Shown here: positions 41,754-45,558 of the stretch, piece after piece
Numbering within the stretch: the first letter of the stretch is position 1
Layout of the letters: every line of letters starts with the position of its first letter
Source of the DNA: Vineibacter terrae
Lineage (GTDB): Bacteria > Pseudomonadota > Alphaproteobacteria > Reyranellales > Reyranellaceae
DNA length: 64,000 nucleotides
Assembly (NCBI RefSeq): GCF_008039615.1
Contig: NZ_VDUZ01000034.1
Span: forward strand, 1 to 64,000
Direction of reading: 5' to 3'
The notes under the pieces: model-generated
Told to the model about the DNA's origin: nothing
Database searches by the model: none
What the model saw: only the letters and a program-made list of their open reading frames with translations
Made by a program: the position numbers and the translations under genes

Positions 41754-42338
41754 CTAACCCTCGAAATCGCCTGCCAGCGCGGTGCGCACGGCGTCCGGCA
41801 TGACCGCCATGTGGCCGTAGTTGGGATGCGAGAAGCCCACGACCACCTCCTTGCCGGGCTGGCGGAAGGCCGCGATCTGCGACGGCGAGAAGGGGAAGTG
41901 CACGAAATGCACCGACGACGCCTTGCCCTCGGCGTTGGTGCGGTCCTGGTCTTCCTCGGCGAGGCCCTTGATGGTCTCGCCGCCGACCCGCAGGTACATC
42001 GTGTGCTCGATGCCGCCCAGGGTGGCCAGCACCCGCGTCCGGCGCACCGGCTCGTCGATCTCGATCATCACCGTGGCCGTCAGCTCACGCCCGTCGGGGA
42101 TCAGCGGGTTGTAGGCCGCAAGCTCGTCCGGGATCTGCTCGGCGCCGCCCTTCTCGATGAAGAGCATCTCCTGCACCTGGTGCAGCATCGTGTCGAAGCT
42201 CTCGAAATAGAAGGTGGCGAACGGGCCGACCTCCAGGCGGCGGTTGCGCTTGATCTGGGTGAGGGCACGGCGCCGCTCGGCACGCACCTTGGCGTACTCG
42301 GTCAGCGGCAGGATGTCGGCTGCGGTGATCTTGCGCAT
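41754..42338 (-). CDS. DUF3501 family protein
   Basis: A 194-residue cytosolic protein. The N-terminal [20 protein letters not shown] and the following [20 protein letters not shown] are diagnostic of DUF3501. Its function is unknown, but it consistently follows rubrerythrin and a GlpC-like (Fe-S) protein, as here. It begins eight bases after the (Fe-S) gene stop, so it belongs to the same operon, probably in peroxide or iron stress. Confidence 0.88.
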
Positions 42339-42346
42339 GGCGGTCC

Positions 42347-43699
42347 TCAGACGGTGAGGCCGTACGCCTTGGCGAACAGCTCGATGGGGTGGTGGGCGCG
42401 GGTGGGCTTGGGCGGCTCGCCGTCGGCAGCGCTCATCTGCATGACCTGCAGCAGGTGATCGGCGGCCAGCGGGCATTCGGAGGCGATATGGGCGTGGCCG
42501 TCGCGCAGGGCCTGGCGTGCTGCCGGCCGCCCGACCTTCACGGCGATGTTGAAGTTCTCGCGGCGCGCGCCCCACACGCCGCCATGGCCCGAGCAGCGCT
42601 CGATCACCGATACCGATGCGTCCGGGATCAGCCGCATCAGCTCGGCCGCCTTGGCGCCCATGTTCTGCGCGCGCGCGTGGCAGGCCAGATGCACCGACAC
42701 GCCGCCGTCGAGCTTGCCCAGGCCCGGCGCCAGGCCTTCGGTCTTGGCGATGTCCACGATGTACTCGGTGATGTCGTACGTCGCCTTGGCCAGGCGCTTC
42801 AGGGTCTCGTCGCCGGGCAGGATCAGCTGCCATTCGAACTTCAGCATCAGGGCGCAGGACGACGTCAGCGCGATCACGTCGTAGCCCTTGTCGATCCAGG
42901 GCACGAGGGCGGCGGAGACGTCACGCGCCGCGTCCGCCACGGATGCGATATCGCCCAGCTCCAGCTTGGGCATGCCGCAGCAGGCGGGATGCACCACCTC
43001 GGTCTCGATGCCGTTGTGCGCCAGCACGGCGCGCGTGGCGGCGCCGATATCGGTGTTGTTGAAGTTGCCGTAGCAGGTCGCGTAGAGGACCGCCTTGCGC
43101 TTGCCGTAGGCCGGCGCGGCGGTGTTGAGCGTCAGCGTCTCGCGGCGCGCGCGGTTGAGCAGCGTCTCGTCCGCATAGCGCGGCAGGTGGGCGCCGTGAT
43201 GGATTCCGGCAACGCTTTCCATCAGGCCGCGCGTCGTCCTGTTCTTCTCGTCCGTCGCCCAGTTGGCCAGGCCGGAGGCGAGGTTCGCGAGGCGGCCGTT
43301 GCGGTCGGTCTCGGCCATCTGCCGCTGCATGAACGGGGTGCCGCGCTTCTTCGCCTCGACCGCGCGATAGCGCAGCATCAGGTGCGGGAAATCCAGGTTC
43401 CACGCATGCGGCGGCACATAGGGGCACTTGGTCATGAAGCACATGTCGCACAGCGTGCAGGCTTCGACGACCGGGCCGAAATCGTCGCTCTTCACGCCTT
43501 CGACCTCGCCGACATCGGTGGCGTCGACCAGGTCGAACAGGCGCGGGAACGAATCGCAGAGATTGAAGCAGCGCCGGCAGCCGTGGCAGATGTCGAACAC
43601 CCGCCGCATCTCGGCATCGAGCTTGGCCTCGTCGTAGAAATCGTCGCTGGTCCAGGCCAGCGGATGACGGGTAGGGGCTTCGAGGCTGCCTTCGCGCAT
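42347..43699 (-). CDS. (Fe-S)-binding, heterodisulfide-reductase/GlpC-like protein
   Basis: A 450-residue protein with two ferredoxin-type [4Fe-4S] motifs. The first is [12 protein letters not shown] (Cys38, 41, 44, 48) and the second [13 protein letters not shown] (Cys81, 84, 87, 92). Two CCG-type domains with [15 protein letters not shown] and [13 protein letters not shown] follow. This is the GlpC/HdrB arrangement of electron-transfer subunits. It lies between rubrerythrin and DUF3501 genes, so it may pass electrons to rubrerythrin. No flavin- or quinone-binding partner is adjacent. The start at 43699 ([12 protein letters not shown]) skips five upstream codons lacking a clear ribosome-binding site. 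Confidence 0.88.
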
Positions 43700-43830
43700 G
43701 GCGGGTCCGCACAATCAGAACGGCCGCCACACCCCGTGCGCGCCGGGCACGGAAGTTCGCGGCAGCAGAATGAACGGTTTGGCGGCGCAAGCCCGCGGCG
43801 GCGCAGCACGCCGCCGCGGGGCAAAGCGCA

Positions 43831-44247
43831 TCAGAGCGTGTCGAGCGCCTTCTGGAAGCGGCCGGCGTGGCTCTTCTCGGCCTTCGCCAGGGTCTCGAAC
43901 CACTCGGCGATCTCGTCGAAGCCTTCCTCGCGGGCGGTGCGTGCCATGCCCGGGTACATGTCGGTGTACTCGTGCGTCTCGCCGGCGATCGCGGCCTTCA
44001 GGTTGTCCGAGGTGCCGCCGATCTTGAGGCCGGTGGCCGGGTCGCCGACCGCCTCGAGGAACTCGAGATGGCCGTGGGCGTGGCCGGTCTCGCCTTCCGC
44101 CGTCGAGCGGAACACGGTCGCGACGTCATTGTAGCCCTCGACGTCCGCCTTCTGGGCGAAGTACAGGTAGCGGCGATTGGCCTGGCTTTCGCCGGCAAAA
44201 GCCGCCTTCAGGTTGCCTTCGGTCTTGGAACCACCAAGCTTGCTCAT
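43831..44247 (-). CDS. Rubrerythrin-family protein, ferritin-like domain only
   Basis: A 138-residue diiron protein. Metal ligands can be placed in [39 protein letters not shown] and [12 protein letters not shown], matching the two ExxH helices of rubrerythrin. The C-terminal rubredoxin domain of classical rubrerythrin is absent, so an external electron donor is needed; the (Fe-S) protein encoded next could serve. GAGGGAG precedes the ATG at 44247. It is first in a three-gene operon, with an ICE-like box about 155 bases upstream. Confidence 0.92.
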
Positions 44248-44402
44248 CGAATGTCTCCCTCTCAACGGCGGCGGTCAGCCGCCCGCCTTGCCGCGCGCAG
44301 TGCCCCCTGGGGCAGGGAGCATGCAATCAACAGGCGGCGGCCCTGATGTCCGCAGGCGGCCGCCCCGCCGTTTATAGGAAGGCGGCCGATACCGGTCAAC
44401 AG

Positions 44403-44419
44403 TTTAGAGCTATTCTAAA
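44403..44419. promoter_or_regulatory. ICE-like inverted repeat, candidate Irr-binding site
   Basis: TTTAGA-GCTAT-TCTAAA is a perfect 6-bp inverted repeat with five-base spacer. It closely fits the iron-control element bound by Irr in Rhizobiales and relatives (TTTAGAA-N3-TTCTAAA type), differing by one base in the seventh position. It lies in a short AT-rich patch upstream of the rubrerythrin operon and just behind the irr gene. Control of the operon by Irr is inference. Confidence 0.65.
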
Positions 44420-44438
44420 AAAGACGAGCGGCCGGTTC

Positions 44439-44846
44439 TTAGCGGCGCACGCGCACCACGACGTCCACCCGCTCGACATTCATGCCGGCCGGGGCGTCCG
44501 GCAGCTGTGTGATCGTCACCCGGTCAGCGGGAATGTCGAGCAGCGTGCCGTCATCCTCAATGTAAAAATGATGATGGTCGCCGACATTGGTATCGAAATA
44601 GAGCCGGCCGGGCCCGACCAGCACCTCCCGCAGCAGTCCGGCGGCGGTGAACTGGTTAAGGGCGTTGTAGACGGTCGCCAGCGACACCCGCGCACCACGC
44701 GCCGCGGCCTCGGCATGGAGCTCCTCGGCCGTCACATGGCGGTCGATCCCGCTGCCGAACAGCAACGTCCCCAGGGTCAACCGCTGGCGGGTCGGTCGCA
44801 GGCCGGCCGCCCGCAGGCGGTCGACGATGGCAGGGTGGCCGGACAT
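44439..44846 (-). CDS. irr: Iron response regulator Irr (Fur family)
   Basis: A 135-residue Fur-family regulator. The DNA-binding domain reads GLRPTRQRLTLGTLLFGSG and VSLATVYNALNQFTAAGLL. The metal/heme-related HHH motif is at residues 91-93 (DHHHFYIEDDG), followed by VERVDVVVRVRR, as in Irr rather than Fur. The N-terminal heme regulatory motif (CP-containing) of Bradyrhizobium Irr is absent, as in many other Irr proteins. Irr represses or activates genes through ICE boxes when iron is low. The gene is divergent from fabA-fabB-fabI, a neighbourhood I recall as conserved in alphaproteobacteria. Confidence 0.9.
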   Translation of the reverse strand: MSGHPAIVDRLRAAGLRPTRQRLTLGTLLFGSGIDRHVTAEELHAEAAARGARVSLATVYNALNQFTAAGLLREVLVGPGRLYFDTNVGDHHHFYIEDDGTLLDIPADRVTITQLPDAPAGMNVERVDVVVRVRR

Positions 44847-44952
44847 GATTCGTCCTTCTTACGCCAAGGCGGCGGCATTGCCTAGGCCGGATCGTCACGG
44901 TGCCGGGCCCGGGCCCCGGACCGCCGGCTAGGGGCTTGACGGGGCGGGGGAA

Positions 44953-44981
44953 TTGTCTGTTTCCGGGCAGCACCCTATCTG
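44953..44981 (+). promoter_or_regulatory. Candidate sigma-70-type promoter of fabA
   Basis: TTGTCT (44953-44958) and TATCTG (44976-44981) are separated by 17 bases, 64 bases before the fabA start codon. An alternative -35 (TTGACG at 44937) has no good -10 at the right distance. Confidence 0.4.
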
Positions 44982-45045
44982 TTAGAACGCCCGCGAAACG
45001 TTCGACTGCCGGCTCGGGTGACCGGCGTTGGCCCATGGACCGCAC

Positions 45046-45558
45046 GTGACCAACAAAAGCAGCTACAATTACGAGGACTTGATCCAGTGCGCCAAGGGGC
45101 TGCTGTTCGGCCCCGGCAATGCGCAGCTTCCCCTGCCGCCGATGCTGATGTTCGACCGCATCGTGCATATCGGCAACACAGGCGGGAAGTACGGCAAAGG
45201 CGAGGTTGTCGCCGAGCTGGATGTGAAGCCCGACCTCTGGTTCTTCCCGGTGCATTTCCAGGGTGATCCGGTGATGCCGGGCTGCCTCGGCCTCGACGCG
45301 ATGTGGCAGCTCGTCGGCTTCTTCCTGGGCTGGCTGAAGGCGCCCGGCCGCGGCCGGGCGCTGGGCGTCGGCGAGGTGAAATTCAGCGGCATGGTGACGC
45401 CGGCGATCCGCAAGGTCACCTATCGCATCCACTTCAAGCGCGTGATCCTGCGCAAGCTGGTGCTGGGTATCGCCGACGGCATCGCGGAGGCAGACGGCAC
45501 GCCGATCTTTGAAGCGACCGACATGAAGGTCGGTCTCTTCCAGCCGCAGGCGGCCTGA
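45046..45558 (+). CDS. fabA: 3-hydroxydecanoyl-[ACP] dehydratase/isomerase
   Basis: A 170-residue cytosolic hot-dog-fold enzyme that introduces the cis double bond in unsaturated fatty acid synthesis. [20 protein letters not shown] and [15 protein letters not shown] are diagnostic. The catalytic pair is His70 ([15 protein letters not shown]) and Asp84 (GLDAMWQ). Using the GTG at 45046 gives exactly the His70/Asp84 numbering of Escherichia coli FabA, which favours this start over the TTG at 45028. One base separates its stop from fabB. Confidence 0.95.

Follow-up and report, generated by a model that had tools for sequence, protein, structure and literature searches.

A palindrome beside irr as the probable Irr operator of a rubrerythrin-RFO-DUF3501 operon in Vineibacter terrae

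We found that a perfect palindrome, TTTAGA-N5-TCTAAA, located directly behind an irr gene of Vineibacter terrae is very probably, as judged from comparison of related loci, the docking site of Irr for the neighboring operon of rubrerythrin (rbr), RFO, and DUF3501. The window, that is, the whole stretch of 64,000 nucleotides analyzed here, carries these elements on its minus strand in the order irr, palindrome, predicted promoter, rubrerythrin, RFO, and DUF3501. The features are as follows:

41754..42338, minus strand, DUF3501 protein (PF12007, 204.4 bits)
42347..43714, minus strand, RFO, a CCG-domain Fe-S protein (start TTG at 43714 or ATG at 43699; name from the available part of PMC5114695)
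43831..44247, minus strand, aerobic-type rubrerythrin, rubrerythrin domain only (domain and NCBIfam searches)
44371..44376, minus strand, predicted -10 hexamer TATAAA (spacer of 17 nt; predicted start point near 44364)
44394..44399, minus strand, predicted -35 hexamer TTGACC, 3 nt after the box
44403..44419, no strand, Irr box (iron-control element, ICE), TTTAGA-N5-TCTAAA (motif search and conservation upstream of rbr in related loci)
44439..44846, minus strand, irr, Fur-family regulator of 135 aa (PF01475; NF045678; NF045677)
45046..45558, plus strand, fabA, divergent from irr, a neighbor outside the operon

The palindrome (TTTAGAGCTATTCTAAA, or TTTAGAATAGCTCTAAA when read on the transcribed minus strand) occupies positions 44403-44419 without a mismatch to TTTAGA-N5-TCTAAA, and 19 nt separate it from the end of irr at 44439. 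It was the only match in the window at up to two mismatches, where shuffled windows led us to expect 0.10 matches. The 8.76-Mb genome contained seven sites at this stringency, and the only perfect copy among them was the box at 44403-44419; the control pattern (the box read backwards) gave 24 sites, and a second count on the 12-letter core at up to two mismatches gave 30 for the control, versus seven. The first-pass annotation had described a near-consensus ICE-like box behind irr and before the rubrerythrin operon; the box is indeed there, as an exact match and the sole perfect copy in the genome. Reading frames near some of the seven genomic sites were listed, unannotated, and a wider Irr regulon is neither claimed nor denied. 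An Rfam search of 43500-45100 returned nothing at the gathering score.

The regulator itself passes both NCBIfam models for Irr, with 202.8 bits against IrrA (NF045678; cut-off 150) and 189.0 bits against NF045677 (cut-off 170). It contains HHH, an instance of the HxH/HHH heme-site motif. HxH was found in 96 of 97 irr-adjacent proteins and also in all three Fur proteins examined, so this motif alone cannot separate Irr from Fur. Lacking any Cys, the protein cannot carry the Cys-Pro heme regulatory motif of the Bradyrhizobium-type Irr, and the degradation mechanism of that type is therefore not to be assumed. In a tree of Irr proteins, which was based on few columns and had mostly weak forks, alphaproteobacterial Irr grouped at 88 and Fur was separate at 99. 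PerR of the Fur family resembles the present system in its Fur fold, peroxide-related target, and palindromic box. However, the NCBIfam PerR models scored the window Irr far under their cut-offs, and no CxxC pair occurred in 26 Irr-like proteins of beta/gamma-type loci or in the 97 irr-adjacent ones, which were read starting at their first aligned residue.

In the rubrerythrin, PF02915 spans residues 13-135 of the 139 translated, and NCBIfam NF045767 matches over profile positions 1-143 of 194 with 137.6 bits, under its cut-off of 200. The protein has no Cys. It lacks a C-terminal rubredoxin domain, and its gene is co-localized with those of DUF3501 and RFO, two features that characterize the aerobic type. 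Because the rubredoxin part is missing, the trio is taken to be the aerobic-type module named in 2016, in which the same three genes stand in a row (Cardenas; PMC5114695, available part). That work reported the association of rubrerythrin, RFO, and DUF3501, found together across prokaryotes, and the trio has also been predicted in Andalucia mitochondria, according to the available part of PMC7050145. For DUF3501, the predicted structure (pLDDT 94.8, pTM 0.90) shares its fold with PDB 3fjv, a structure of unknown function, at Z 25.8 (next best 7.3), and 3fjv was the sole PDB entry that Foldseek returned at E < 0.001. Neither comparison, with PDB structures or by Foldseek, yielded a function.

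The distribution of the box was investigated in 80 named loci around relatives of the window DUF3501 and in further loci: 40 drawn largely from other families of the window's class, 11 from the order of G153, 5 from a phylum-wide draw, and the 40 loci L177-L216 of the class of G323 (rbr in 40/40). The resulting 177 sequences (window, L005-L084, L117-L172, and L177-L216) included 164 with a usable rbr upstream region, and exclusion of five repeats (L117, L132, L150, L151, and L153) and of L152 left 158 loci. The contig of L152 ends just upstream, no Irr was found in its genome (G004), and the box is present; counted as regulator-less, it would change the box frequency without regulator, given below, from 1/25 to 2/26. 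Counts of box spacing, box position, and shuffles refer to the 164-locus set and include the five repeats. A box was called at 10 or more of the 12 fixed letters. Irr status was assigned from an adjacent upstream irr found by tblastn or from a genome scan with the IrrA model, the call for named irr-adjacent loci coming from tblastn with the window protein rather than from the model. Irr-like proteins (best hit at least 94.0 bits) were separated from plain Fur (at most 65.5 bits) at a line set after the scores were known. The operon tree was built from DUF3501 and RFO with 110 rows, close window relatives being thinned. The label "beta/gamma-type" reflects kinship codes (same phylum, class of G323) and this tree, not names, and "Rhizobiales-side" denotes the order of G153 (the Methylocella tundrae genome, L065) together with L060, L171, and L172, the last two by label only.

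A box was present in 119 of the 164 rbr upstream regions, compared with 31 of 3280 simple shuffles of 300-nt upstreams, and the scan of other rubrerythrin-DUF3501 operons proposed in the first-pass annotation came out in favor of the element. An adjacent upstream irr was found by tblastn in 97/164 loci, repeats included. Among the 158 loci, the box accompanied 114 of 133 rbr genes with an Irr-family protein in the genome, versus 1 of 25 without (both 114, regulator only 19, box only 1, neither 24). The 114 comprise the window, 52 named irr-adjacent loci, 1 other named locus, 3 of the window's family, 19 of its class, 6 from the order of G153, 2 from the phylum draw, and 30 from the class of G323. 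Fisher's p for this table (1e-15) overstates independence, because about half of the 114 (the window, the 52 named irr-adjacent loci, and the 3 of its family) are near relatives. Eight independent pairs on the tree differed in the regulator; box and regulator went together in a median of seven of them and opposite ways in none, while one showed no difference (median p 0.016). Ten named loci had neither an adjacent irr nor a box, and the best IrrA hits of their genomes were weak and Fur-like (45.9-50.3 bits). Where irr lies elsewhere in the genome, the box was retained in 8 of 11 loci of the alphaproteobacterial sample (L060, L142, L157, L161, L163, L164, L171, and L172; L065, L160, and L167 failed the threshold); L142 (G132) keeps it though irr lies at C2:331040 and DUF3501 at C2:859684. 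The 19 Irr-positive loci under the threshold (19/133) include many with a degenerate box. This pattern supports well the prediction that Irr controls the rubrerythrin-RFO-DUF3501 operon. The link of Irr to the operon that the first-pass annotation had drawn is supported by conservation of the box and its co-occurrence with Irr; the accompanying suggestion that DUF3501 works in iron- or peroxide-stress defense is not, as it is guilt by association.

Two further arrangements deserve mention. In Irr-less genomes another block, about AACTTCAATT..AA followed some 10 nt on by TTGG.CTAG, replaces the box before rbr (L036, L074, L076, L077, L081, and loosely L059), and it is perhaps the site of another regulator. 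L137, from a 1.4-Mb genome, has two perfect boxes around a TTTGAC hexamer, approximately 34-83 nt before rbr.

The loci from the class of G323 had been chosen as negative controls in which no box was expected. The box at 10 or more of 12 letters was nevertheless present in 31 of 40, so the rule that the box equals alphaproteobacterial Irr was dropped, and the finding led to genome searches that revealed Irr-like proteins there. In the genomes of this class with a box, a Fur-family protein scores 94.0-141.4 bits with the IrrA model, short of the cut-off of 150, and is called Irr-like only, whereas the best hits in genomes without a box were 46.3-65.5 bits. Four beta/gamma Irr-like proteins scanned singly scored 114-142 bits, with IrrA as the best NCBIfam model. 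The exceptions are L194/G506, taken up below, and L178/G553, which combines an Irr-like protein at 134.6 bits with a weak box. L214/G689 is an alpha-type operon with an adjacent irr at 171.9 bits and was grouped with the irr-adjacent loci in position counts; the score-10 site of L211, 281 nt off, was taken as spurious, yet kept in the counts. In two genomes an Irr-like gene adjoins the operon at its far end and runs toward DUF3501 in convergent orientation (G631:C2:149855-150244 and G502:C1:17621-17923), which is another linkage of regulator and operon. The boxes of the two groups differ in their preferred letters at positions 7 and 11, namely C and G in beta/gamma-type loci (C..G 13/30) versus A and T in irr-adjacent loci (A..T 70/77). 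Seven Rhizobiales-side operons, six from the order of G153 plus L171, fall inside the beta/gamma-type half of the tree (L157, L158, L160, L161, L163, L164, and L171), a nesting that suggests transfer; five of them pass the box threshold, with A..T four times and T..T once in this small sample.

The box also keeps a fixed distance to a predicted promoter, a detail absent from the first-pass annotation; start points throughout are predicted. When the box score was at least 9, TTGA[CT] lay 1-6 nt past the box in 83 of 89 irr-adjacent loci (shuffle mean 1.0), and 44 of these 83 also had a -10-like hexamer at the appropriate distance (shuffle mean 3.2). The gap was 3-5 nt in 80/89, 4 nt being commonest (48) and 3 nt next (25). 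A generic promoter scanner made no call at the window promoter because it requires the second hexamer to end in T, at position 6, and TATAAA does not. Many Reyranella-type loci (among L010-L070) share GGCGGATGGGCCG in the leader between the -10 hexamer and rbr.

The position of the box relative to the promoter differs between the two groups. In irr-adjacent loci the box was upstream of the -35 hexamer in 69 of the 80 best promoter calls and inside the promoter in 11, whereas in beta/gamma-type loci it was downstream of the -10 hexamer, over the start, in 24 of 29, inside in 5, and upstream in none. Its center was at -51 to -46 in 68/80 of the former versus +7 to +15 in 23/29 of the latter. In loci of the alphaproteobacterial sample with irr elsewhere, where promoter calls were weak, it was inside in 5/7 and downstream in 2/7; an upstream box was also found in L142 (irr elsewhere) and L152 (contig ends). 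The -35 hexamers came closer to the consensus in beta/gamma-type loci (mean 5.86 of 6, n=21) than in irr-adjacent ones (5.11, n=80; p 9e-12), while the -10 hexamers did not differ (3.60 in irr-adjacent versus 3.76 in beta/gamma-type loci, p 0.20). Since the box lies on opposite sides of the promoter in the two groups, its on/off meaning may differ between them. ICEs upstream of a promoter reportedly act in positive control and those overlapping the start in negative control (Rudolph, 2006).

The explanation that we favor, with somewhat better than even confidence, is that the palindrome serves as the operator through which the neighboring Irr represses the operon from a sigma-70-type promoter 3 nt beyond; the comparison lends support to the box, to its tie with a protein of the Irr family, and to its constant position ahead of the -35 hexamer. 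When iron or heme is low, heme-free Irr would bind the box, block RNA polymerase from the -35 region, and hold the operon down. Plentiful heme, or peroxide damage to Irr, would release it, and rubrerythrin, presumably a peroxide reductase, would then be made together with RFO as its presumed electron donor and DUF3501 as partner. Given Irr as the regulator, repression is rather probable, and activation has a substantial chance somewhat short of even. We prefer repression because ccpA of Rhodobacter sphaeroides, a measured case of similar placement, is mildly repressed, and because one logic would be kept across groups. The ccpA start lies about 40 nt after the Irr box, similar to the prediction for the window, and ccpA expression was 1.8 times higher in an irr mutant under iron limitation (PMC3413700, available part). 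The smallness of this mutant effect stands against the explanation, and a box upstream of the -35 hexamer may mean activation.

It is possible, though less probable than repression, that Irr activates the operon from about -48, aiding RNA polymerase in iron- or heme-poor cells, and that the same box over the start represses in beta/gamma-type loci. The opposite placements of the box center, the tight spacing to the -35 hexamer, and the weaker -35 match in irr-adjacent loci are consistent with this, as is the statement, in the available part of a review, that Irr represses or activates depending on ICE position (PMC7762939). A further possible hint is that rbr of P. ubique was up 1.57-fold under iron limitation (PMC2864753, available part). 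The ccpA precedent argues the other way, the -10 hexamers are alike between groups, a clade-specific promoter taste could account for the -35 difference, and the window promoter, TTGACC-17-TATAAA, seems strong enough unaided. That a different regulator, such as the Fur protein of the genome, reads the box and irr is merely its neighbor is improbable. Irr and Fur belong to one family, and in L194/G506 all 12 letters of the box are matched while the best hit in the genome is a Fur-like one at 61.3 bits, no Irr-like protein being found; but the box is missing in 24 of the 25 loci without an Irr-like protein although 23 of these genomes (all but G095 and G204) gave a Fur-like hit, the pattern of box and regulator recurs in independent pairs, and the box is mostly retained where irr lies elsewhere. 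An inverted repeat directly behind irr might also be a transcription terminator or RNA hairpin, which we consider very improbable: the stem is A+T-rich, the T-run of the coding strand precedes it rather than following it, a terminator scan left the box uncalled and made its sole call inside irr, and the box persists in the eight loci listed above that have no upstream irr. In addition, the stem letters of 80 irr-adjacent boxes (413 consensus pairs, 7 compensatory, 60 broken) are conserved and not covarying, which indicates a protein site rather than a hairpin. Chance is hardly credible, for although 10 of 100 window shuffles gave at least one match at up to two mismatches, the box has none, sits in the right place, and is conserved in relatives, and this conservation refutes chance.

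Irr, the ICE, and the trio are each already known. The Irr/ICE system of Bradyrhizobium and other alphaproteobacteria (R. sphaeroides mbfA and ccpA) shares with ours the NCBI Irr families, the box type, and targets in iron and oxidative stress. MbfA, the known rubrerythrin-like target, contains a VIT-like part that spans the membrane (PMC7762939, available part), while the window protein is rubrerythrin only, accompanied by RFO and DUF3501. In the text of the 2016 paper as available (PMC5114695), the word "irr" occurs 0 times, and regulation is the addition made here. Our literature search found no paper joining Irr/ICE to the trio and none on the switch of the trio, most subscription papers lying outside that search. 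The Irr regulon study of Rodionov (2006), we presume, may list some of these sites. What is new is the predicted spread of Irr-type control beyond alphaproteobacteria and the two box placements. The family was described in 2020 as confined to alphaproteobacteria with few exceptions, in the available part of a review (PMC7762939).

We regard as speculative, and rather unlikely, the wider reading that Irr-type control of the operon is an old and widely retained circuit of Pseudomonadota reaching beyond alphaproteobacteria, its sign inverted with the side of the operator (repression at the start point in beta/gamma-type loci, activation from before the -35 hexamer in irr-linked alphaproteobacteria). 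An operator common to these loci and linked to a heme/iron sensor would offer a cheap direct test of when the module is needed, hence of the role of DUF3501, and the two placements would serve as a natural experiment on the effect of operator position on regulatory sign. The family would be widened by Irr-like proteins linked to the operon outside alphaproteobacteria.
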